This document shows, in pieces, positions 1,360 to 14,107 of a stretch of DNA of 64,000 nucleotides. The position numbers were made by a program, and so were the translations under genes. The notes under the pieces were generated by a model, which was not told the origin of the DNA, ran no database searches, and worked only from the letters and a program-made list of their open reading frames with translations. Numbering within the stretch: position 1 is the first letter of the stretch; every line of letters starts with the position of its first letter. Source of the stretch: Pontiellaceae bacterium B1224 (lineage in GTDB: Bacteria; Verrucomicrobiota; Kiritimatiellia; Kiritimatiellales; Pontiellaceae); the NCBI GenBank assembly GCA_029432815.1, contig JAROBA010000018.1:1-64000 (forward strand), in the 5' to 3' direction.

Positions 1360-3126
1360 TTATCTCACAGGTATGAAGCGAATGGCCTTCAGGCTCGCAA
1401 GTTCCGAATCACCTTCAAGGCAGGAAACAGCCACTTTATATTTTCCAGGGGTTGGAAAGTTAATCCAGCCGATTGGAAATTCCTGATAGTTGTGCGAGGA
1501 GTTCTGTTGATTCTGAATGTGTTCCCCCCCGACGACATCAATGCCCCACACGAGGCGGCCTTCGCCGGCATAGGTCAGATCAACATTATAGTCGCCGGCT
1601 TTAAGCACATTCACCTCGAAGGTTGCTGTTCCATCGGGCTCCCATTTATGCACACGTGTAATCCGCTTCCATTCACCGAATTTTTCCATCCAGCGTTTTT
1701 CCGACTGCTCCGCACCTTCAACTTCGGCAAACTCGGCCAGGATTTCTGTTCCCGTATCAGGATCAATCCCGAAGGTCGGATCGACCTTCGGCGTACCGGC
1801 CAGTTCAACTTCAATGACGGACACCAGTTTTTCGGGTGCCCGCGGCGGCAGTTCAAAAACGGTCCAACCATTGGAAGTATTAAATTCAAGCGCTTCCGGC
1901 TTTCCATTAACGAGCAGTGACGCTGAATTGATTTTAGTTTGCAATCCGGGGAGATAAAGTTTTCCGGATGCCGGCCATTCAAAGACGGAAAAAATCAGCT
2001 TGTTTCCGTGCACCGTAATGTCGCCCCAGGGCAACGCATGTTCCCAAGGTGACGGACCGGCATTATAGACCACCTGCGGGTAGCGGTGAATCCATTCGCC
2101 GGATTCGCGCAGTGATCGGGCAGCGCGCTCGGGTACGGCACCCGCTCCATCCGGACCGATATTCAGCATATACGTTCCGCCGCGGCCGACGGTGGCAATC
2201 AGGCGACGCAGGATTTCCTTTGGCGTTTTCCAGTAGTTATCGTACCAGGCATAGGCCCACGAATCGTTGGTTGTGTCCACACTTTCCCACAATCCGGCCA
2301 CATTTTTATGCGGCACTTCCATATCGCCCAGCGACTGGTAATCGCCCAGGTTATGGCCGGCCCGGCCGGAAATGAGCGCATCCGGCTGGTTTTTGCGCAC
2401 CACTTCCACCAGCTGCTGTACATATTTTTTCGGCATCTTGCCGGGCGTATCGAACCAGACCATTTCGATCGGTCCATACTGCGTTGTGATTTCTTCCACC
2501 TGCGGCAGGCACTTCTTTTTAAAATAATCGTCAAAGTCGGCCGGCTTCCCGTTCTCATCCACCGCAGGTCCTCCTCCGCCACCGGGAAAGGTCCAGTCCT
2601 GATTATGTGAATAATAGAAACCGAATCCCAGCCCTTCGGCCCGGCACGCTTCGGCCAGATCCAGCATGGGATCTTTCGCCCACGGCGTTGTTTTTGTGAT
2701 GTTGAAATCGTTAGCCTTGGAATCATACATCGCGAAGCCATCGTGATGCTTACTGGTGATGATAATGTATTTCATCCCAGCATCCTTCGCCAGTTTGGCA
2801 ATCGCTTTGGCATCGAATTTTTCAGGATTAAAGGTCCCCGCCAGCTTTTTATATTCGTCACTCGGTATCCCGGCCATACGCGGGTTCATGATCCACTCGC
2901 CGATGCCGTAATAGGTTTTCCCATCCACTTTATTTGCGAGCTGAGAATACAGCCCCCAGTGAATAAACATGGCATAGTTGCCCTCGTCAAACAGCTGGCC
3001 GCGCTTTGCATTTTCGGCACGGAGCTTGATGGTGCTCTCGCCCCACATGTCATCCATTTCTTTTTTCTCAGCCATGCCCTGCATCGCCAGAATCCCCACT
3101 AAACCTAAAACTAAAATATTTTTCAT
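1360..3126 (-). CDS. Secreted alpha-L-fucosidase, GH29
   Basis: A 588-residue protein that should remove terminal alpha-L-fucose from glycans. A signal peptide covers residues 1-19 (ends GMAE). GH29 catalytic features are visible: FIHWGLYS near 54-61, SKHHDGF at about 125-131, and VWFDTPG with the predicted nucleophile Asp226. The C-terminal 200 residues look like beta-sandwich modules (GH29 C-terminal domain, then a carbohydrate-binding-like module). It is the last gene of a minus-strand operon sulfatase > esterase > fucosidase and is followed by a terminator. A TTCCAGGGGTTGGAA palindrome lies inside the gene at 1443-1457 and encodes FPTPGK. The family is clear. The exact linkage preference is unknown. 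Confidence 0.95.
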   Translation of the reverse strand: MKNILVLGLVGILAMQGMAEKKEMDDMWGESTIKLRAENAKRGQLFDEGNYAMFIHWGLYSQLANKVDGKTYYGIGEWIMNPRMAGIPSDEYKKLAGTFNPEKFDAKAIAKLAKDAGMKYIIITSKHHDGFAMYDSKANDFNITKTTPWAKDPMLDLAEACRAEGLGFGFYYSHNQDWTFPGGGGGPAVDENGKPADFDDYFKKKCLPQVEEITTQYGPIEMVWFDTPGKMPKKYVQQLVEVVRKNQPDALISGRAGHNLGDYQSLGDMEVPHKNVAGLWESVDTTNDSWAYAWYDNYWKTPKEILRRLIATVGRGGTYMLNIGPDGAGAVPERAARSLRESGEWIHRYPQVVYNAGPSPWEHALPWGDITVHGNKLIFSVFEWPASGKLYLPGLQTKINSASLLVNGKPEALEFNTSNGWTVFELPPRAPEKLVSVIEVELAGTPKVDPTFGIDPDTGTEILAEFAEVEGAEQSEKRWMEKFGEWKRITRVHKWEPDGTATFEVNVLKAGDYNVDLTYAGEGRLVWGIDVVGGEHIQNQQNSSHNYQEFPIGWINFPTPGKYKVAVSCLEGDSELASLKAIRFIPVR

Positions 3127-3242: not shown

Positions 3243-4490
3243 TTATTCAGCGGTATCCTCGACATTCGACACCTCGCGATAACCTGAGCTTACTGTCAAA
3301 CCTCCGGAGCGCACATTAAAAAACCAGGCCGTGGTTCCGGTCGGCAGTTTGGCACGAACGTACCAATGCTCTTCGCCTTCATCTGTAAGTTCTGCAACCG
3401 ATTCTATCCAATTCCTCGATCCGGTCACACCGGAATCCGTGGTTGAAATCAAGACAGCGTTTTCTAAAGGTTTCGCACATTCAAACATGGCTTCTGCTGT
3501 GTTATCGACCACGTTAATATCCTTGGCACGAAACCACGGAGATCCCTTTTCAACCACACTTTTGGCGAAAGCATAACTGTCGGGCGGGTTCCAGCCGGCC
3601 CCGTGCCCATGTCTCATGCCGGGAATGAGCGACACCATGAATGGACCCGACATACCTTCATAACAGCCCGCCTGTTTATCTAAAGGAAAGTGGGCATCGG
3701 CCGGCCACGAAAGCCAGAGCGTCGGCATCGCGGCATTTTTGATCCGCACCATCGGATCCCACACCTGTTTATATATCTCATTTTTACCGAGCGCTTTTCC
3801 GTATTGATTTTCAGCCATCGCCAGATTCCCGCATCCATAGGTTGGAATCGCAAAGGCAAAGCGATTATCGATTCCGATCACGGTACTGGTGATCACCCCG
3901 CCCCATGAGATCCCCATCACCCCGACTTTGTCCGGATCAACTTCCGGCAAAGAACGGATCAAGGAATTGGCAAGAATCGTATCGGCCACGGCATGATACA
4001 TCCACTGATCCTTCAGCGGCACATCGGAGTCGCCATAAATCCCGTCCCGACGCGGACCGGGCCAATTATGCTGCTTCCATGATTTTGCCCGATCAACCGA
4101 GTTCGTGTCTCTTATATCGACCTGTCCTTCAACGGCGATGGAAATGGCGGCAAACCCCTGATCATTCCATTTCTTCACCCATTCCTTGAACGCCGTGCCG
4201 CCACCCCCATGCACGAGCACAACACCGGGAACTTTGCCCTCGCTCTTTTCAGGAAGTCCCAGCCAGGCAAATACCTTTGTTGCTTTTCCGTTATAGTCAA
4301 GCGCATCAAAATAGATCGGTTTAACGGCCCCCTCTGCAGCAAACTCTTTCGCATCCATCATAACCGGAGCATCTGTAAGTTGGCCTAATGCGAGCACCTG
4401 CTCTTTTTCGGACGAAAAGTCATCCGCCCAGGCCAAACCAGCCGCCATTACAACTACAACACAGCTCATTAATATATTTCGTTTCATCAT
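3243..4490 (-). CDS. Secreted alpha/beta hydrolase (acetyl esterase-like)
   Basis: A 415-residue protein with a signal peptide (residues 1-22, ends GLAWA). The alpha/beta-hydrolase fold is shown by the oxyanion strand VVLVHGGGGTAF (about 91-101), the nucleophile elbow GISWGG with Ser195, a probable acid Asp near 265 (WPADAHFP) and a His in GMRHGHGAGW (about 294). It resembles dienelactone-hydrolase and acetylxylan-esterase-like proteins of glycan loci, so it may remove acyl groups from the glycan. The last 90 residues form an extra beta-rich domain. Its start overlaps the sulfatase stop by 4 bases (ATGA), which supports translational coupling. The substrate is unknown. Confidence 0.85.
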   Translation of the reverse strand: MMKRNILMSCVVVVMAAGLAWADDFSSEKEQVLALGQLTDAPVMMDAKEFAAEGAVKPIYFDALDYNGKATKVFAWLGLPEKSEGKVPGVVLVHGGGGTAFKEWVKKWNDQGFAAISIAVEGQVDIRDTNSVDRAKSWKQHNWPGPRRDGIYGDSDVPLKDQWMYHAVADTILANSLIRSLPEVDPDKVGVMGISWGGVITSTVIGIDNRFAFAIPTYGCGNLAMAENQYGKALGKNEIYKQVWDPMVRIKNAAMPTLWLSWPADAHFPLDKQAGCYEGMSGPFMVSLIPGMRHGHGAGWNPPDSYAFAKSVVEKGSPWFRAKDINVVDNTAEAMFECAKPLENAVLISTTDSGVTGSRNWIESVAELTDEGEEHWYVRAKLPTGTTAWFFNVRSGGLTVSSGYREVSNVEDTAE

Positions 4491-6382
4491 CGAGTTCCTT
4501 TCCCATCGGTCACTGACAGTGCATTAACCGAATACTTTTCTTTGCGAGATCCGATCATGTCGACCATTTCCGGATAGCTGATGAGAAAGTTATTTTCATC
4601 AATCAAATTTATTACGTAGTGCGAGGTCCCTTCGGGCAGTACAGCGGAAACTTTATTTCCGGGCAGAATTTTCGCAGGCAAACGGAACCACTCTTCGTAG
4701 CGATGCCCGCCGTTGAGGGTGTACAGCAACTGAGCACGCTGCACCTTCGCTCCGTGCTCCTTATACCGAAACAGTACGGTATTCCCTTTTTTCTGATGTG
4801 AGACGACCGACGGCACCATTTCCTTGCCCGGGAGCTCATTCTTATGTGCTGGATTATAATAGGGATAGCTTGCTTTCATTTCGGTAAGGATTTCAGTTAG
4901 CTTCCGGTTCATGGCCTGCGCCTTTTCGGGCATGGCAGCCGCCAGATTTTTTGACTCCTCAATATCGCCACGCTTCTGCTTTCCGCCTTGGATTTCATAC
5001 AGTCGGTAGAGCTCCAGTTCAGGCGAATTTGCATTGTTCACATAGTCATAGTTTCGCACGAGTTTATAGTCGCCGATGCGGATGGTGCTTTCCAGCGCAA
5101 GGCTGTTCGGGAAGTGCCATATCATGGTATCGCGGACAGAACCATCGGCCGCCTTGACTAAATCAGGATTCGACGGATCTTTAATCAGCAAGCGGGCCAG
5201 ATCGCTGCCGTCGAATGATTTTCCTTCGGGGCGCTCACTCCGGGTTAGCGTCAGCAGGGTCGGGTAGAAATCGAGCCCGTTCACCATCACGTCCGACTGT
5301 ACACCTGCAGCAATGCCGGGACCGGTAATAATCAGCGGGACGCGCGTGCCGCCTTCCATCGCGGAGATTTTACCGCGGGCCAGCGGATAGTTATCCGTAA
5401 TGATTTCGCCGGGATGCTGCTCCATGCCGCCGTTGTCGGATGTGAAAATGAGATATGTATTTTCACTGAGTTTATGTCCTGGCCAGCGCGGATCTTCGGT
5501 GGTTTCCAGATACTGGAAGAGTTGTCCGACATAATAATCCAGCTCCTCCACCATGGCGCAGTAGAATGGATTGGTCTGCCCCTCGCCCTTCCACTCTTCC
5601 GGATTTTCAGGACGCTCGACGCCAAGCTTTTTGCAGTATTTGTCGAGAAGCCGTTCGTTCCGGGTATGAATCGGTGAATGCACCAGCCAGGTGGCATAAT
5701 ATAGAAAGAATGGTTTATCTTTATTCTCCTCCACAAACGTCAGCGCATCGATGCTGTTCTGATGCGTGCAGAACCCGTTTTCATCCAGCTGGTACGGATC
5801 ATCCGTTTGATCCGTTGCAAAACCGGCCAGGCGGTTCGGGCTCATCTTTTTTGTGGTTCCGAGGTTATGACGCGTCCAGTCGAAGCCCTGATCTTCCGGT
5901 TGCGGAAATGCATTGTGGTTAATCGCCATATGCCACTTGCCGCAATGCCCGGTAGTATATCCGTTCTGCTTCAGCGTGAGTGCAAGCGTCTGCTCATTTT
6001 CCGGCATGCGACCGCTGTACCAAGGCGGCATCATCCGGTGCGCGGTTTTATTGTATGGCGTTGGCGGACCTCCGCCGATCACATGGGTTTTCTGGGCGCG
6101 GGCCGGATGATTTCCGCTCATGATTGCACATCGGGAAGGCGCACAGGTTGGTGCCGGGGAATAAGCCTGCCAGAACATCACGCCTCTCTTTGCCAGCGCA
6201 TCAATATTCGGAGTTTCCATCGGCGAGGGTTCGTCAATGTCGTAGCACTTCACATCCTGCCAGCCCAGATCATCGGTCAGCAACAGGATCACATTCGGTT
6301 TTTCGGGTCGTGCGCTATCTGCACTGAACGCATTCATTCCGCACATCAACGCGGTAAAAGCAACGGGCCAACTCAACTTCAT
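4487..6382 (-). CDS. Secreted formylglycine sulfatase (S1 family)
   Basis: A 631-residue sulfatase that hydrolyses sulfate esters, presumably on an algal or animal glycan. A signal peptide covers residues 1-21. The alkaline-phosphatase-fold start is visible as NVILLLTDDLGWQD (metal-binding Asp pair at 37-38), and the activation motif CAPSR gives Cys80 as the residue converted to formylglycine. GKWHMAINHN and IFTSDNGG supply further active-site residues. It is the first gene of the sulfatase-esterase-fucosidase operon and is transcribed away from the 815-residue secreted protein. Maturation needs a formylglycine-forming enzyme, which is not in the window. The family is certain; the substrate is not. 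Confidence 0.95.
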   Translation of the reverse strand: MKLSWPVAFTALMCGMNAFSADSARPEKPNVILLLTDDLGWQDVKCYDIDEPSPMETPNIDALAKRGVMFWQAYSPAPTCAPSRCAIMSGNHPARAQKTHVIGGGPPTPYNKTAHRMMPPWYSGRMPENEQTLALTLKQNGYTTGHCGKWHMAINHNAFPQPEDQGFDWTRHNLGTTKKMSPNRLAGFATDQTDDPYQLDENGFCTHQNSIDALTFVEENKDKPFFLYYATWLVHSPIHTRNERLLDKYCKKLGVERPENPEEWKGEGQTNPFYCAMVEELDYYVGQLFQYLETTEDPRWPGHKLSENTYLIFTSDNGGMEQHPGEIITDNYPLARGKISAMEGGTRVPLIITGPGIAAGVQSDVMVNGLDFYPTLLTLTRSERPEGKSFDGSDLARLLIKDPSNPDLVKAADGSVRDTMIWHFPNSLALESTIRIGDYKLVRNYDYVNNANSPELELYRLYEIQGGKQKRGDIEESKNLAAAMPEKAQAMNRKLTEILTEMKASYPYYNPAHKNELPGKEMVPSVVSHQKKGNTVLFRYKEHGAKVQRAQLLYTLNGGHRYEEWFRLPAKILPGNKVSAVLPEGTSHYVINLIDENNFLISYPEMVDMIGSRKEKYSVNALSVTDGKGTR

Positions 6383-6554: not shown

Positions 6555-9002
6555 ATGAAAAATACGTTATGGCTCTCTGTAATCACGTTGCTGACCTGCG
6601 CCCCGGGAATGCTCCAGTCTGTCACTGCGGAAACAGCGGACTCACCTTCTGCACCCGTGTCCTCTTTGGAAAGGCTGGCGCCCCTCGCCCCTGCAAATTT
6701 TTCCTACGCCTACTGGCTGAATGGATGGCGAAAAAATCTGAATGATACGTCGGCTGAAATCCTCTGTTTTGAAACCGGGCACTATGGGTTAACGATTGAC
6801 CTATCCAATTTTTCCAACACCCATTTCGGCTTAATTGACGATATCTCCAGTTATGTGGAGGCGGCACACACTGACACCCAGCGAATCAAAGAACTCGATC
6901 CCGCCGAACTCGTATTAGAGATAAGCGTGAACGGAAAAATTTACCGCGCCACCGCCTGCCAGGCGGGTATTGATAAAGGCACAAAAAAACTTCAGACCGC
7001 CCGTTTATGGGAATCGGGACAGCTGGTCCAGCATTTCGACCTGATTGGACTCATTTTTAAAGACAAGGCCGGCACGTTGCTGGAGTGCGACGGCACACTC
7101 GATATTGTGGTCTGGCCGGATACCCTCACCCTGAATCTGGAACTGGCTCCGAGCCAGAAAACATGGTCCAATGCAAAAATAAGTATCCGCCTTAACGATT
7201 GGTACACCGATAAAACGGTTTCCAATGATTGGAAGTCCGGGAAAAATGAAAAGCTGACGCTGACCTGCAACCTGCAGGAACCGGGCTATTCTAAAAACAC
7301 GATTTCGATGAAGCTTCAAGCTTCGGAAAATCAAACGTTCCCCGTTCAGTTTGATGAAGCCTATAACTGCTTCTCGACCAAGATCGGCAAACGGGAACTC
7401 AAGCGCAGCTTTAAAACCGGCTATACCGACATCCGTGATTACGATGAATTTGACATCACCATCGAAAATCAGTTGGGCAACACCTACGTGCCCTTTCAGC
7501 TTGATTTAAGCAGCCCCGGAAACATCACAGGGCTTTGCCCCATCCTTTGCGAACCGGACGGCACACCGACCGGCATTCCGGTACAGCTCAGCAAAAACTG
7601 GCATCATGCAGGCCTTGGTTCCTACCTCCGCGCCTATGCGCTGATCCCTGCCGCAAAAGGCACATCATCCTACAAACTGCGGATCGTCTATGGTTTTTAC
7701 GGCACCCTGCCCTCGGCCAGCCACTCCCAGCTTTCGCTGGTCGGATACGGCAAAGATGGGGCACACGGTAATAACGGTCGGTGGGATCAACTGGCGATTG
7801 GCTGCTGGGGCGAAACCATCTGCTTTGATATGGACCAAAGTTGCGTGGATAACGTCGTCACCGATGTTCGCATGCTGATGGTCCGCAACGGGCTGGACGG
7901 TAAAAAATGGAGCTGGACCGACGGTGGCTGGGGCGGCGACTGGCTGAACCTGAGAGATGACCGCGATCAGAAACTCTATTTCACGGAACTGAAGACGGCC
8001 TATGTTTCGCAGGGGCCCTGCCTGACCGAAGTCCACTACGACGGCTATTACGGAAGTGAACGCGAAGTCGACTTAAAGGCAGTTGTTCGAACCTTGCGTA
8101 CGGACGATTATGCACGCACGTTCCAAACCTTTACATACACCTTCACGAAAACCGTTTCTGCAGCGGATTGCTGGTTGTTCAAAATGGGTAAAACCAGAAG
8201 CCTGATTACGCCCGAAATTGCATACGGCAACGACTCGGGATTACTCAAAGAACATAAGGTTCCGAGCGGACTGGATGCCGGCGAGGTCTACCAACGGGAT
8301 ACCGAGCTCACCGGCAGCGCCCCTTGGTGGATTGCCTTCCCCGGTGCCTATAAAAGTGACGGCAAGGAATGGGGCACTGGAAGCCGGGCGCTGATCATCC
8401 GCTCATACCTCGCGAAAATCGGTGACAAAACTTTTACCAACCCCACGGTTTCTTTCCCGGTGTATCGCGTGGAATCCAAGGGCAATATTAATCTGGATAT
8501 GATTATGACTCCACCGACAGGCGTGACCGAATTTCATGCCGGCGACACCATTGCATTCGAGGTCGTATGGATCACCCTGCCCCGCGTGGCCGACGACTAT
8601 TACGGCCCAAATGAAAGCTTCCGAAACCACCTAAAAAAATATCCCCGTTCCTGGGAAAGCGTCTATCGCGAGGCCCTTGGAAACGACCTCGAAATCCAGA
8701 TTGTCGGCGGAACGGTTAAGAACAAGTATCCCATCATTATTGAAACCACCCGCCCGGATGACATTCAGGTGAAAATAACCGGCGGAGTCGGCGTGGTTCC
8801 GATTCGTTTTGAAGGGCTTGCTTCCCCGGACTATGCCCTGTATCAGGTAAAAGGAAATAACCGTATCAAGCTCGATCAAGCGGTACACGGGAACGATTTC
8901 TGGCAGACACTTTACGACCCGTCATCGGATACCTACAGTCTCACCTATAACCTCCCGCTCGACGGTGTGCGCACCTCCGGCTGGGTTCTCATGGCCGAGT
9001 GA
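6555..9002 (+). CDS. Large secreted protein of unknown function in glycan locus
   Basis: An 815-residue protein with a clear signal peptide (MKNTLWLSVITLLTCAPGML..., cleavage near TAETA). I do not recognise the family. The sequence is rich in aromatic and beta-strand-like segments across its whole length, with tryptophan-rich stretches (KKWSWTDGGWGGDWLN near residue 450) and repeated acidic DGYYGSE/DDYYGPNE motifs, as in carbohydrate-active beta-sandwich proteins. It is read divergently from the sulfatase-esterase-fucosidase operon and is followed by a second fucosidase on the other strand. That context suggests binding or cleaving the same glycan, but no catalytic residues can be named. The palindrome at 7220-7234 encodes SNDWK. 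The ribosome-binding site is weak. Confidence 0.8.
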   Translation: MKNTLWLSVITLLTCAPGMLQSVTAETADSPSAPVSSLERLAPLAPANFSYAYWLNGWRKNLNDTSAEILCFETGHYGLTIDLSNFSNTHFGLIDDISSYVEAAHTDTQRIKELDPAELVLEISVNGKIYRATACQAGIDKGTKKLQTARLWESGQLVQHFDLIGLIFKDKAGTLLECDGTLDIVVWPDTLTLNLELAPSQKTWSNAKISIRLNDWYTDKTVSNDWKSGKNEKLTLTCNLQEPGYSKNTISMKLQASENQTFPVQFDEAYNCFSTKIGKRELKRSFKTGYTDIRDYDEFDITIENQLGNTYVPFQLDLSSPGNITGLCPILCEPDGTPTGIPVQLSKNWHHAGLGSYLRAYALIPAAKGTSSYKLRIVYGFYGTLPSASHSQLSLVGYGKDGAHGNNGRWDQLAIGCWGETICFDMDQSCVDNVVTDVRMLMVRNGLDGKKWSWTDGGWGGDWLNLRDDRDQKLYFTELKTAYVSQGPCLTEVHYDGYYGSEREVDLKAVVRTLRTDDYARTFQTFTYTFTKTVSAADCWLFKMGKTRSLITPEIAYGNDSGLLKEHKVPSGLDAGEVYQRDTELTGSAPWWIAFPGAYKSDGKEWGTGSRALIIRSYLAKIGDKTFTNPTVSFPVYRVESKGNINLDMIMTPPTGVTEFHAGDTIAFEVVWITLPRVADDYYGPNESFRNHLKKYPRSWESVYREALGNDLEIQIVGGTVKNKYPIIIETTRPDDIQVKITGGVGVVPIRFEGLASPDYALYQVKGNNRIKLDQAVHGNDFWQTLYDPSSDTYSLTYNLPLDGVRTSGWVLMAE

Positions 9003-9564: not shown

Positions 9565-10986
9565 TTACTTCTTTTTTCCAGCCATTGGATTGACCAACGT
9601 GTCATGCTGTTTTTTTGGGGCCCCATCTTCAACCTTAATCAGGGCGAGTTCCGGGCCATCGGCGAGCGTGAGTTTTACTACGCTGTGCACGGTGCGTTCT
9701 TTTCCACCTTCGAGGCTCAGCACCAGGCCGCGCTCCGTCTGCTCAAAACTGACCGGTTCACCACCGAGTTCCTCACAACGAATCACTTCACGCGGAAGCG
9801 CGGGAAGTGCAAGCTCATCATTCAACCATTGGAAAACGTGCAGATAGATCACGTTATCTTTGGTGCAGGAACCGCCCCACTGCCCGCTGATGTACGGACC
9901 GCCTTCGGTGCCGTAGATGCTTTCGCCGTAGGTTTCGATCCAGGGTTTAAACTGCTTCAGATTTTCCAGCTCTTCCGGGCGGAGTTCGCCGGTAGACATC
10001 GGCCCGACATTCAGCAGCATGTTGCCGCAACCCGTCACGCAGGCTGAAAGCATCTTTGCGCATTCCTCAAAACTCTGGGTGGTTGCATCCGGACGATAGG
10101 ACCACCCGCCCCCATCGACTCCGTGCGACATCGGCATGCAGGTTTCCCATGGATCGTCTTTGCGGAAGACCCCGATCTTTCCTTCCGGCGTTTCGTAATC
10201 GCCTTTGGTCAGTTCAACCAGTTCAGGATCCGGCGTTCCGGCTTTACTTCTGAATACAAAGCGGGCTGCCCGATTGTTAATGATGATGTCAGGTTGCAGC
10301 TCATAGATCATATCAAACAGTTCCTGAAAACGGTATTGATCCCAGCGGCCCGAAACATGGTCGAACCAGAGCACATCAACGTCTCCATAGTTGGTCAACA
10401 GTTCCCGGAGCTGGCCGTGATAATAATCGTTGTACGCACTATTGTCGCCCACCAGATAATCGGGATGGGTCCAGTCGCGGGTTGAATAATACCAGCCGAG
10501 CTTGAGGCCGTGCCGATGAACCGCATCGGCCAGTTCTTTGCAGATGTCCCGTTGATACGGCGTGTTCATGATGTTGTAGTCGGTCAGTTCGGTTGCCCAG
10601 TTACAAAAGCCGTCGTGATGTTTCGCCGTGAACACGATGTATTTCATACCCGCTGCTTTTGCAGTCCGCACCAGCGCATCGGCATCGAATTCTACCGGAT
10701 TAAAATTTTCATAGAGCACGTCGTATTCGGCATCCGATATTTTTTCCAGCTTGCCCGGATGATCGTACGGATGGGTTGCACGCGCCCAGCTGATTTCCAC
10801 TCCGGCAAGGCTCGACGGGCCCCAGTGAATAAACATACCGAACTTATCATCCAGCCACCAATCCAGCCGCGCGCTATCGGCAATACGCTCTTCAGCGATG
10901 GAAACAGACTCCGCTGCCAGGCTGTTCAGCGGGTTTAAGGATGCGAGAATCGAGGCAATCGTCAAGGTGGATAACAGCTTATTCAT
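9565..10986 (-). CDS. Secreted alpha-L-fucosidase, GH29 (second copy)
   Basis: A 473-residue GH29 enzyme. The start at 10986 is chosen because it begins a signal peptide (MNKLLSTLTIASILASLNPL, cleavage near LAA) and has AGGAAC upstream; an in-frame ATG at 11040 would put the signal inside. Catalytic features are KFGMFIHWGP (48-57), AKHHDGF (121-127), and VLWFDH with the predicted nucleophile Asp209. It lacks the extra C-terminal module of the fucosidase at 1360-3126 and is clearly a different subgroup, so the two enzymes may cut different linkages. It is monocistronic, with decayed sulfatase sequence just upstream. Confidence 0.93.
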   Translation of the reverse strand: MNKLLSTLTIASILASLNPLNSLAAESVSIAEERIADSARLDWWLDDKFGMFIHWGPSSLAGVEISWARATHPYDHPGKLEKISDAEYDVLYENFNPVEFDADALVRTAKAAGMKYIVFTAKHHDGFCNWATELTDYNIMNTPYQRDICKELADAVHRHGLKLGWYYSTRDWTHPDYLVGDNSAYNDYYHGQLRELLTNYGDVDVLWFDHVSGRWDQYRFQELFDMIYELQPDIIINNRAARFVFRSKAGTPDPELVELTKGDYETPEGKIGVFRKDDPWETCMPMSHGVDGGGWSYRPDATTQSFEECAKMLSACVTGCGNMLLNVGPMSTGELRPEELENLKQFKPWIETYGESIYGTEGGPYISGQWGGSCTKDNVIYLHVFQWLNDELALPALPREVIRCEELGGEPVSFEQTERGLVLSLEGGKERTVHSVVKLTLADGPELALIKVEDGAPKKQHDTLVNPMAGKKK

Positions 10987-11141
10987 AATCGGTGTTCCTG
11001 TGAGTTTACGGTCATAGTTCAAGCCCCAGTATATCCGCATATATTATTAAGCCTATCGTTCGTATGAAGGATACGAATTACGGCCATGGGCGGAGAGAAT
11101 CGTGGTTTCCCGGGGATCAATCGCCCGGCTTGATTCCGTTC

Positions 11142-11258
11142 CTACGAAAAATACCTGAGGTGCCATTTTCCAAAATAGGCCGTTTGGTATCCATCCTTTC
11201 TTAAGAGCTGAGGCAAGGTGACGTCATTGCTTTTCAAATGACAATAATGACGGGCGGG
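11142..11258 (-). pseudogene. Sulfatase fragment
   Basis: The minus strand in this interval reads LKSNDVTLPQLLRKDGYQT followed by AYFGKWHLR and then a stop at 11142-11144. DGYxTAxFGKWHL is the conserved N-terminal sulfatase motif. No CxPSR signature or downstream catalytic half is present, so this is a remnant of a third sulfatase gene. It is fused out of frame to the broken gene on its right. Confidence 0.75.
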
Positions 11259-12138
11259 CAACCATCGACACACCCCGTTTCTGCAGGGAATTCTAACGGT
11301 CGGAATCGCAGACCGGTCCCACCAAAATGCAGATGCCCCACATTTATCTCGTTGAGAAAGTCTCCGTATTCTCCGCAGATTTCTTCGGCAACGCTATTGG
11401 GCATGCCAAAATCGTCCTCAAAATTAAATGAACGATTGATGAAAACACACCCTGCCATCTCGGCACCCGCTTTATGAGATTTAGCGACGCTTCCTCCGTA
11501 GCCCCGCGTGCAATTTTCCAGCAGCCACACATTCTCATCTTCACGCTTTATCTCTTTCGCAGAAATGATCTCATCCCCAATACGCATAAACACATCTTTT
11601 TGCGTCTCGAGGATTTGCCTGCCTAGACGGAAACGTATGCTGGTGGCGGAAGAATTGATGTCCTCCGCCAGCCCGCCGGTGGCCTGCACTCGATGCGCTT
11701 GTCAACAAAGGTGGGGGAAATATATTTGCTGTTATCTCTGTCAATCTGGGGACTGAGACTCTTGAGCTGCAGATGGATGCCTTTGGAATCCAGATAATCG
11801 CTATAGGCTAATAGATCCGCTTTCCCTTTTGGAAAAACCGCGGGATTTACCCCCGTCATGCCCTGGCTTCTGTCTCTCCAGACATTGCTGAACAGATAAA
11901 CACGGTTGCCCCGCTGGGATTGACGTAGGTATCCGTCATTTCATAAAGTTCCTCCAGATTCCCGGCAGCAACACTTACCTTGGCAATGGTTGAAAACTTC
12001 GCCACCCAGTGCTCAACCCAGCACCAGCTTCGACGGCCGGGCGGAACGATCGAACGTAAGCTCCGAGTCGGCAAAGCCCATTTCCGACAACACCAGACAC
12101 AACACGCCAATCATGAGACTACTTATATTCACATTCAT
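11234..12138 (-). pseudogene. Broken secreted-protein gene with several frameshifts
   Basis: Coding starts at an ATG at 12138 with a signal-like leader (NISSLMIGVLCLVLSEMGFA). It then jumps frame near 12020, again near 11860 and again near 11690, and ends at 11234. The joined pieces read ...STIAKVSVAAGNLEELYEM, ...GVNPAVFPKGKADLLAYSDY, and ...GGLAEDINSSATSIRFRLG. They are protein-like with plausible codon use and together would give about 300 residues of a secreted protein. I do not recognise the family. Neighbouring fucosidase, sulfatase remnant and porin suggest a lost glycan-degradation gene. Confidence 0.65.
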
Positions 12139-12360
12139 AGTGCACATCCCATTTCCATACGCTTCTACGTGCGCCCCCAATTTCCTGTCTTAGAGACCAC
12201 GTCATCCAAAACAATCCTTTCCCGAACTCCGGACTACGACGGGTCACAATGGTCACATTCTTAAATTCAGCACTTTGCGCATTACGAATATATGCCCCCG
12301 AGAGCAACAACTAATTCCTTATTGACGTTCTCTCCAACATAACGATTGTAAAACACGACA
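12119..12360 (-). pseudogene. Further decayed coding fragments
   Basis: Two short minus-strand reading frames look protein-like but lack intact context: one ending near 12295 (VVFYNRYVGENVNKELVVAL then a stop) and one from 12310 (IRNAQSAEFKNVTIVTRRS). They overlap or abut the broken gene on the left. They may be C-terminal scraps of other glycan-locus genes. Identity not known. Confidence 0.3.
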
Positions 12361-12628
12361 TAAAAACAGGTCTAAAGCGCTATTACATCCTCTATTTGTA
12401 TGTCGATTAAAATAACCGGGTCTACTCAAACATACATTAATCAAAGTCATCTCTAAGGATTGAAAAGGGAATGGAGATCGTTCTGCGGATAAAGTCTCTG
12501 CGTTATTGAAGCAACATCAGTTTGCTCAACACTTCGAACGGTCAAAATGAATTCATACAGTTACGGAGCTGAACTCTACCCTTTAAAATAACCATACAAT
12601 TCTTGTAAAAACCTATTCTTCTACTAAA
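12361..12628. other. Upstream region of the porin gene, nothing identified
   Basis: AT-rich non-coding sequence upstream of the porin, presumably holding its promoter. No palindrome of the dispersed family, tRNA or clear promoter pair was found. Confidence 0.35.
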
Positions 12629-12655
12629 ATGTTCGTACTAACTGGGAGGATGATT

Positions 12656-14107
12656 ATGAGAACACTTGTTACGTTTCTATGGATAAGCTGCTTGGTGATT
12701 TCCACTCTGGCAGATGAATCTACCGATAAACTGCGACAGGAATTCCTTGCCTATAAAACGGCATCCGATGCGCGCATCCAATCCTTGGAAGATCAGCTCA
12801 CAAACCAAACCAGTCTCACCCAATCGGAAATCGAGGGTCTGCGAATGCTGAATGAGCGCGGCACATTTGATTTTGAATTCCACGGCTATCTGCGATCCGG
12901 TTACGGCATTGCGGCAAACGGAGCATCGCAGGTCACCTTTCAGGCCCCCAATGCCAACGCAAAGTATCGACTGGGCAACGAAGCGGAAACCTATCTTGAA
13001 ACAACCTTTATGGCCAAAACACCCGAAGATATCACCGGTTCCCCGGATAAAAAGTTCACGACCATTCTGACGATGGCCTACGCCGTTGAAACAGCGAACA
13101 GTGGAAACTTTGACACCCAGCTTTCCCTGCGCGAGGCCTACGGAAAAGCGGAAGGTTTAATTCCCGACAACCCCACGGCAACCTGGTGGGCGGGACAGCG
13201 TTTTTATTCACGTATTCAGGTTCATATGACTGACTTCTGGTATCGTGACATGAGCGGATACGGCGGTGGCATTGAAAATGTCACCATCGGGGATGATGCT
13301 ATGCGACTGGGGTTTGCCTGGATCGGAGGTTCCATTGATGAACTGAATGCCAATGGAACGATTGCCACGCCCGGAACCGTTTTCCGGAAAGACAGTTTCG
13401 ATCTGGATCTTACGAAAATTTCATCCCTAGGCGGGGAATTCAGAACACAGCTGACCTACTCCTATTTCCATGGTCAAACAGTTGATACAGGTGGTGGGAA
13501 TACCGTCGAGCTGACCGACAGCCACGGGGCATCCATTAACTTATTTCAGATTAATGAGTTTGAGAACGGCATAAACAACACGGCCGTTCTACAGCTTGGC
13601 TATGGCGCGGCATTCAACTTCCTGGGGCAAATGACGATGCCCAATGGAGTGGATCTCACAACTGTACCGAACGGAACCGTTTTTGATACGGAAGATATTC
13701 AGCAGGTTCGATTCGTCGAAGATCTGATTTATGACAACGGCGGAAAAGTTTCAGCATCAGCGACAGCGGTTTATCAATATTCCGATGCCAACATTCCAAT
13801 GGGGCAGGTTCACTGGACATCGCTCGGGGTCCGCCCGGTTTATCATTTCGACCGAAACTACTCCATTGCAACCGAGGCTGGCTGGGACTACACCGATCAG
13901 AAAGACGGTGAAAGCGGATCGCTGTTTAAACTGACATTCGCCCCGCAGATTACGCCACAAATGTCTGTTTTAAGCCGTCCCGCACTTCGCCTCTTTTTCA
14001 CCTATGCCTGGTGGAGCAATGAATTTGAGGGCCAGGTTGGAACCCCGGCTTACTCAACAGACACAGCGGGATTTTCAACAGGAATTCAGCTCGAAACCTG
14101 GTGGTAG
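12656..14107 (+). CDS. LamB-like maltoporin-type outer-membrane channel
   Basis: A 483-residue outer-membrane beta-barrel for sugar uptake. The start at 12656 has GGGAGG six bases upstream and begins a signal peptide (MRTLVTFLWISCLVISTLA). Residues about 20-60 form a coiled-coil trimerisation segment (IQSLEDQLTNQTSLTQSEIEG region), followed by FEFHGYLRSGYG, the typical first strand of maltoporins, and alternating amphipathic strands (WWAGQRFYSR, GGGIENV, TEAGWDYTDQ). The protein ends in LETWW, and an aromatic C-terminus is usual for barrels inserted by BamA. It follows the fucosidase/sulfatase genes and could import released sugars. Substrate inferred only. Confidence 0.88.
   Translation: MRTLVTFLWISCLVISTLADESTDKLRQEFLAYKTASDARIQSLEDQLTNQTSLTQSEIEGLRMLNERGTFDFEFHGYLRSGYGIAANGASQVTFQAPNANAKYRLGNEAETYLETTFMAKTPEDITGSPDKKFTTILTMAYAVETANSGNFDTQLSLREAYGKAEGLIPDNPTATWWAGQRFYSRIQVHMTDFWYRDMSGYGGGIENVTIGDDAMRLGFAWIGGSIDELNANGTIATPGTVFRKDSFDLDLTKISSLGGEFRTQLTYSYFHGQTVDTGGGNTVELTDSHGASINLFQINEFENGINNTAVLQLGYGAAFNFLGQMTMPNGVDLTTVPNGTVFDTEDIQQVRFVEDLIYDNGGKVSASATAVYQYSDANIPMGQVHWTSLGVRPVYHFDRNYSIATEAGWDYTDQKDGESGSLFKLTFAPQITPQMSVLSRPALRLFFTYAWWSNEFEGQVGTPAYSTDTAGFSTGIQLETWW

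Follow-up and report, generated by a model that had tools for sequence, protein, structure and literature searches.

A widespread, unnamed family of predicted beta-supersandwich proteins, probably glycan-active, with a member encoded beside fucosidase and sulfatase genes in Pontiellaceae bacterium B1224

What does a gene of no recognized family do among genes for fucosidases, a sulfatase, and an esterase? Endo-fucanase activity is attributed to few families, namely, GH107, GH168, GH174, GH187, and members of GH141 (PMC12786026), and the Pontiella authors stated that no model exists of the bacterial breakdown of fucoidan to monomers (PMC7356697). We analyzed a 64,000-nucleotide stretch of DNA from Pontiellaceae bacterium B1224 (contig JAROBA010000018.1; "the window" below). 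The original prediction had singled out in it an open reading frame (ORF) for a secreted protein that might belong to a new carbohydrate-active family. Our results show that the family is real, widespread, and unnamed. It is probably enzymatic and glycan-active, and on balance we favor the view that the protein encoded in the window is a secreted, all-beta, glycan-cleaving enzyme.

The ORF was found where it had been placed, with an ATG start and with its stop codon included in the interval, and it is genuine, since relatives are encoded across many genomes. Its parts and its neighbors are given in Table 1. The three genes to its left are all on the minus strand, as expected from the proposed divergence from a sulfatase-esterase-fucosidase group. 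A second fucosidase gene does follow the target gene in position, but because it is on the minus strand, it converges on the target gene and lies outside its operon. The best PDB sequence match of the sulfatase was a kappa-carrageenan sulfatase, S1_16, and the divergent GH29 protein very closely resembles the solved GH29 enzyme 9rzx (789 bits). Scans for promoters and terminators gave nothing beyond chance level. Two other ORFs lie nearby: a LamB-type maltoporin gene just past the fucosidase cluster (12629-14107; PF02264, 6.8e-85) and a small ORF (11234-11689) that matched PF23666 (Rcc01698-like C-terminal, E 1.1e-4) at a sub-threshold level.

TABLE 1 Positions in the window of the target gene, its parts and candidate residues, and its neighbors
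Feature	Positions	Strand	Basis
Target gene, secreted, unclassified family, 815 aa	6555-9002	+	Sequence, relatives, profile searches
Residues 1-25, probable signal peptide	6555-6629	+	Sequence; model helix 5-15; cleavage site inferred
N-terminal beta-supersandwich-like domain, residues ~45-290	6687-7424	+	PL26 Z 12.0 over residues 48-274
Linking beta region, six-stranded, GIPVQxSKNWH motif, residues ~291-384	7425-7706	+	Model, alignment; domain boundary inferred
K347-N348	7593-7598	+	100/104 and 101/104 relatives (inflated for L037-L116, see text); 11/12 and 12/12 distant
Central beta-supersandwich, proposed catalytic domain, residues ~385-712	7707-8690	+	PL26 Z 16.6 over 386-729
E420, candidate catalytic acid	7812-7814	+	104/104 relatives; 11/12 distant
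D437-V-R439, candidate catalytic acid and partner Arg	7863-7871	+	D and R each 104/104; 12/12 distant
D518..R521, candidate catalytic acid and anion-binding Arg	8106-8117	+	104/104 and 99/104; both 12/12 distant
C-terminal beta-sandwich domain, residues ~713-815	8691-8999	+	Model; fold type inferred from strands
Sulfatase, divergent neighbor	4487-6382	-	PF00884, 5.8e-45
AXE1/DLH-type esterase (possible deacetylase), divergent	3243-4490	-	PF05448, 6e-13
GH29 alpha-L-fucosidase, divergent	1360-3126	-	PF01120, 5.6e-71
Second GH29 alpha-L-fucosidase, convergent	9565-11040	-	PF01120, 7.9e-73

The description of the protein as of unknown family held up: the target had no match in Pfam or NCBIfam at an E value of ≤1 and, by phmmer, none among PDB sequences at an E value of ≤10. 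A profile of the family returned just two unrelated PDB chains (E 0.5 and 1.4). When the relatives themselves were scanned, no Pfam or NCBIfam model covered the family region, and there was no significant PDB sequence match. Plasmid records contained no match, and PHROGs yielded nothing under E 0.19. We know of no biochemically characterized member. Our literature search found no paper tied to the family, which, as subscription journals were outside its reach, is not proof of absence.

Relatives were present in 8 of 58 near genomes. In the phylum as a whole (Verrucomicrobiota), 27 of 387 genomes carried them, as did 6 of 246 in Planctomycetota, the phylum of Aporhodopirellula (L046), and 15 of 101 in Armatimonadota, the phylum of Fimbriimonas (L106). 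When named genomes were scanned by pattern, 299 stretches were returned; of these, 290 were confirmed as encoding relatives, and 80 were kept. These members are mostly from Verrucomicrobiota and Planctomycetota and also from Hydrogenedentota and Armatimonadota. The nearest relatives, 74 to 75% identical, are in Pontiellaceae, and many members come from bins with names suggestive of lake, soil, or groundwater. Profile searches added 12 very distant relatives (L177-L188; 825 to 1126 aa) from Armatimonadota and Planctomycetota that keep the charged signature described below; one of them, L179, is only 18 to 20% identical to four family members. A Pfam scan of 10 of the 12 gave no significant match. 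Five of the 12 distant relatives (L181, L182, L183, L186, and L187) carry an insert of their own, about 150 residues long and of unrecognized type. Some bin names look doubtful: the contigs carrying the members L044, L067, L112, and L084 are titled Akkermansia muciniphila or Candidatus Nealsonbacteria. Pontiellaceae bacterium B12219 has two members in head-to-head orientation (L037:7157-9574 and 9818-12367) that are only about 28% identical.

In the relatives scanned, several other domains are joined to the family region. A sulfatase is fused to it in L030, L034, and L032, an AXE1-type esterase in L031 and L071, and an alginate-lyase-like domain in L129. NPCBM is fused in L071 and L106 (L071 additionally carries BD-FAE), and LamG is fused in L122 and inserted after residue ~200 in L049, L058, L112, and L116. 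A span of more than 940 aa was seen in 31 of 104 members, which points to such an insertion; long extensions are present in 13 of 104. The first of the sulfatase fusions is in the genome of B1224 itself, where a second copy, about 31% identical to the target over the matched part, lies behind the sulfatase domain. That gene (G000:C122:20501-22828; L030:7085-12301) encodes a 1739-aa protein with an N-terminal sulfatase and a C-terminal distant family member. Within the first 50 aa, 18 of 104 relatives have a lipobox-like pattern, and several members are probably lipoproteins. A 1194-aa ORF at L048:8210-11791 combines GH2 domains (the catalytic barrel matched only over 1-196 of 302) with family residues 215-812; it may be a fusion or a chimeric gene.

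An AlphaFold2 model of the target, built with 48 aligned sequences (pLDDT 89.6, pTM 0.90), is a beta-supersandwich protein made almost entirely of strands, which agrees with the all-beta appearance originally reported; 23 of the 815 residues are tryptophan. Foldseek against the PDB placed MdoD, OpgG, and OpgD on top (E 6.6e-7 to 8.2e-5), with GH38, GH36, mutarotases, and chondroitin ABC lyase lower. In the VIA fold comparison, in which we treated rows within about 1 Z unit as tied, the best match was PL26 (Z 16.6, 252 residues, model 386-729). It was followed by MdoD (15.6), GH38 Ams1 (15.2), OpgD (15.1), FpGalactosaminidase (14.7), the aldose epimerase 3ty1 (14.1), the GH174 endo-1,3-fucanase 8jd7 (13.8), and 3mwx (13.6). 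Residues 42-384 folded alone gave a pLDDT of 92.5, and this N-terminal half by itself matched the PL26 supersandwich (Z 12.0, residues 48-274) and then GH36, mutarotases, LacZ domain 5, and GH174 (Z 8.1). We therefore read the model as two supersandwich-type domains in tandem. This reading is from structure alone, and hhalign gave no support for a duplication (E 0.2).

Most of the solved structures closest in fold are enzymes acting on carbohydrates or beta domains of such enzymes. No match turned up to a family of binding or adhesion proteins, the result that would have counted against the original prediction. Nevertheless, many of the matched supersandwiches are accessory, not catalytic (LacZ domain 5, the GH38 C-terminal domain, and the GH36 N-terminal domain), and a few matches are nonenzymes (the YidC periplasmic domain and an NDH subunit). 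Solved GH107 and GH187 structures were not among the fold matches listed, which is no test of those families.

Conservation was assessed in an alignment of 104 non-redundant full-length relatives. The only charged residues present in all 104 are E420, D437, R439, D518, and D664, the last of which is probably structural, in a GD turn. Q344, K347, N348, H350, R515, R521, and R611 are kept in at least 95%, although the two patterns used in the scan include portions of 338-349 and 410-419, which inflates conservation there (K347, N348, and W410) for L037-L116; E420, D437, R439, D518, and R521 are outside the pattern regions. Among the distant relatives, D437, R439, D518, R521, and N348 are kept in all 12, and E420, K347, and C423 are kept in 11; one distant relative, L185, has neither K347 nor E420. 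H350, W349, R515, R611, and W592 are not kept in this set, Y682 is lost, and the aromatics W187, W349, and W592 change. The original statement that the protein has no recognized catalytic motif is correct for named motifs, but comparison of the relatives reveals a strictly conserved charged set. The fold, the invariant acidic and basic residues, and the sulfatase, esterase, and lyase-like fusion partners all support the idea that the family is new and carbohydrate-active.

We propose the following mechanism. After export, the tandem supersandwich-type domains, the linking beta region, and the C-terminal beta domain would form one body. An anionic chain would be bound by the SKNW loop (346-349) together with a groove in the central supersandwich (~385-712), and its sulfate or carboxylate groups would be held by the invariant R439 and the near-invariant R521 and K347. 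Two of the residues E420, D437, and D518 would act as general acid and base, and water would cleave the glycosidic bond. The polysaccharide attacked in B1224 would probably be sulfated, acetylated, and rich in fucose. Opening its chain or taking off a branch would be the task of this enzyme, and the neighboring sulfatase, esterase, and GH29 fucosidases would trim the pieces. The substrate and the endo or exo mode are the weakest steps of this explanation. That the substrate is a fucose-containing sulfated polysaccharide is plausible at somewhat less than an even chance, and that the target is an endo-fucanase is doubtful.

We prefer hydrolysis to elimination by a fair margin, since the wide set conserves three acids and neither a His nor a Tyr. 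Elimination retains some weight from the match to PL26 and from the alginate-lyase-like domain and genes associated with members. A polysaccharide lyase would cut a sulfated fucan or rhamnan that contains glucuronate: the C5 proton of a uronic acid would be abstracted by K347 or a different basic residue, with N348 and the arginines neutralizing the carboxylate. Both halves of the model have PL26 as their best VIA match, an alginate-lyase-like domain is fused to one member (L129) and such a gene adjoins another (L037), and a Lys, an Asn, and two Arg residues are conserved. However, PL26 carries a C-terminal helical (alpha/alpha) toroid after the supersandwich, and by DSSP the target model has no helical barrel; the only helices in its C-terminal part are two short ones at 687-709. 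In addition, three invariant acids exceed what a lyase needs, no Tyr or His is invariant in the distant set, which lost both H350 and Y682, and a pure fucan has no C5 carboxylate. A lyase is therefore unlikely, though it is the strongest of the alternatives.

We give still less credence to a noncatalytic glycan-binding or scaffold protein of a polysaccharide-degrading machinery. Such a role would suit an all-beta, aromatic-rich protein with LamG insertions and fusions, supersandwiches are often accessory domains, and the probable lipoproteins among the members would fit as well. The pattern of conservation is of the catalytic type, however: the three acids and R439 are invariant over the 104 relatives and are kept in very distant ones, while the tryptophans W187, W349, and W592 vary. 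It is very improbable that the target is an epimerase or mutarotase-like enzyme, with the fold of galactose mutarotase, that works on chain ends or on sugars already released. The target shares the supersandwich fold of these enzymes, and 3ty1 and 3mwx were among the matches. But mutarotase catalysis depends on a Glu and two conserved His, and the family has no invariant His, the best candidate, H350, being present in 99 of 104 relatives and in none of the 12 distant ones. Export and the fusions to sulfatase, esterase, and LamG also favor polymer substrates.

Evidence about the substrate was sought in gene neighborhoods. Copies of the window's sulfatase lie near the family gene in L037 (83% identical), L038 (83%), and L041 (61%); of the 12 loci inspected, the remaining 9 had no such close copy. 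An 85% identical copy of the second GH29 gene is near the relative in L037, GH95, GH28, and alginate-lyase-like genes lie near the members in L037, L039, L044, or L052, and GH29 genes likewise lie beside near relatives. Across the family, there was no such association. Sulfatases made up 10 of 126 genes adjacent to the family gene and 11 of 102 genes more than 6 kb away, and GH29 genes made up 4 of 126 and 5 of 102, respectively; the distant genes are from the same contigs and so are not an independent control. Some members lie beside housekeeping genes (riboflavin kinase, 4/63; trigger factor, 3/63). Genomes with the family were not enriched for carriage of any GH29 gene (23/27 versus 269/360; P = 0.26). 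A GH29 load of at least 20 loose candidates did differ (7/27 versus 10/360 genomes; P = 4e-5), but we set this aside: the threshold was post hoc, the count was made by eye, and phylogeny and genome size were uncorrected. Neighborhood statistics across the family thus do not single out fucoidan. At the level of organisms, Pontiella sulfatireligans F21, which carries a 74% identical relative, is described as growing on fucoidan from four algal sources (PMC7356697), and P. agarivorans is reported not to grow on fucoidan (PMC10880615).

The family is widespread and unnamed, and its clear candidate active site narrows the proteins and mutants of interest to a short list; naming it would give a name to hundreds of proteins without a family model in these searches. 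In the broadest version of our proposal, which we consider improbable as a whole, these proteins would be the first members of a new family of glycoside hydrolases (or lyases) built on tandem supersandwiches. It would open the chains of sulfated fucose-rich polysaccharides in Verrucomicrobiota, Planctomycetota, and Armatimonadota and would include the fucoidanase of Luteolibacter algae H18. That verrucomicrobial enzyme is reported to be 112 kDa (PMC10094035) and is called unclassified in a review (PMC11943901). Fourteen large relatives have computed masses of 105 to 119 kDa, one of which, L072 from a Luteolibacter bin, ends at a contig edge; the comparison is by size alone, proves nothing, and is a lead only.

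How, then, does the family stand to known systems? The target has no Pfam or NCBIfam match to GH29, GH95, or the other Pfam-modeled families. The closest likeness in fold is to the exo-rhamnogalacturonan lyase of Penicillium chrysogenum (PL26; 5xqg/5xq3), whose supersandwich superimposes on the central one of the model at 3.7 Å, but the Pfam domains of PcRGLX are absent from the target. A link by sequence was rejected: with 30 PF19501 loci, hhalign gave E values of 0.06 to 0.4 over short stretches, which is not significant. One of these weak alignments paired the GP..V..G strand region (486-533) with the like region of PcRGLX proteins. The beta-1,2-glucan enzymes of GH186 (OpgD, OpgG, and MdoD) were the top Foldseek family and reached Z 14.6 to 15.6 over model residues 47-705 (MdoD, 250 residues), yet they have no sequence similarity to the target by phmmer, and the family profile likewise did not recover OpgD or OpgG. 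In OpgD, D388 is given as the general acid and D300 as the base, along with R359 (PMC10514313). The GH174 endo-1,3-fucanase 8jd7 shares with the target a sulfated-fucan context and the fold (4.4 Å over 264 residues of a chain of 510; model 50-712), but its fold score is lower than those of PL26 and GH186, and there was no sequence match at an E value of ≤10. For Fun174A, the residues given are D119, E120, and E218 (PMC11943901). The family is set apart by PDB, Pfam, and NCBIfam sequence, and a CAZy group that is recent or still unclassified may correspond to it. Within the reach of HMMER and hhalign, the family lies outside GH186, GH174, and PL26, and in the predicted model it resembles all three by fold.
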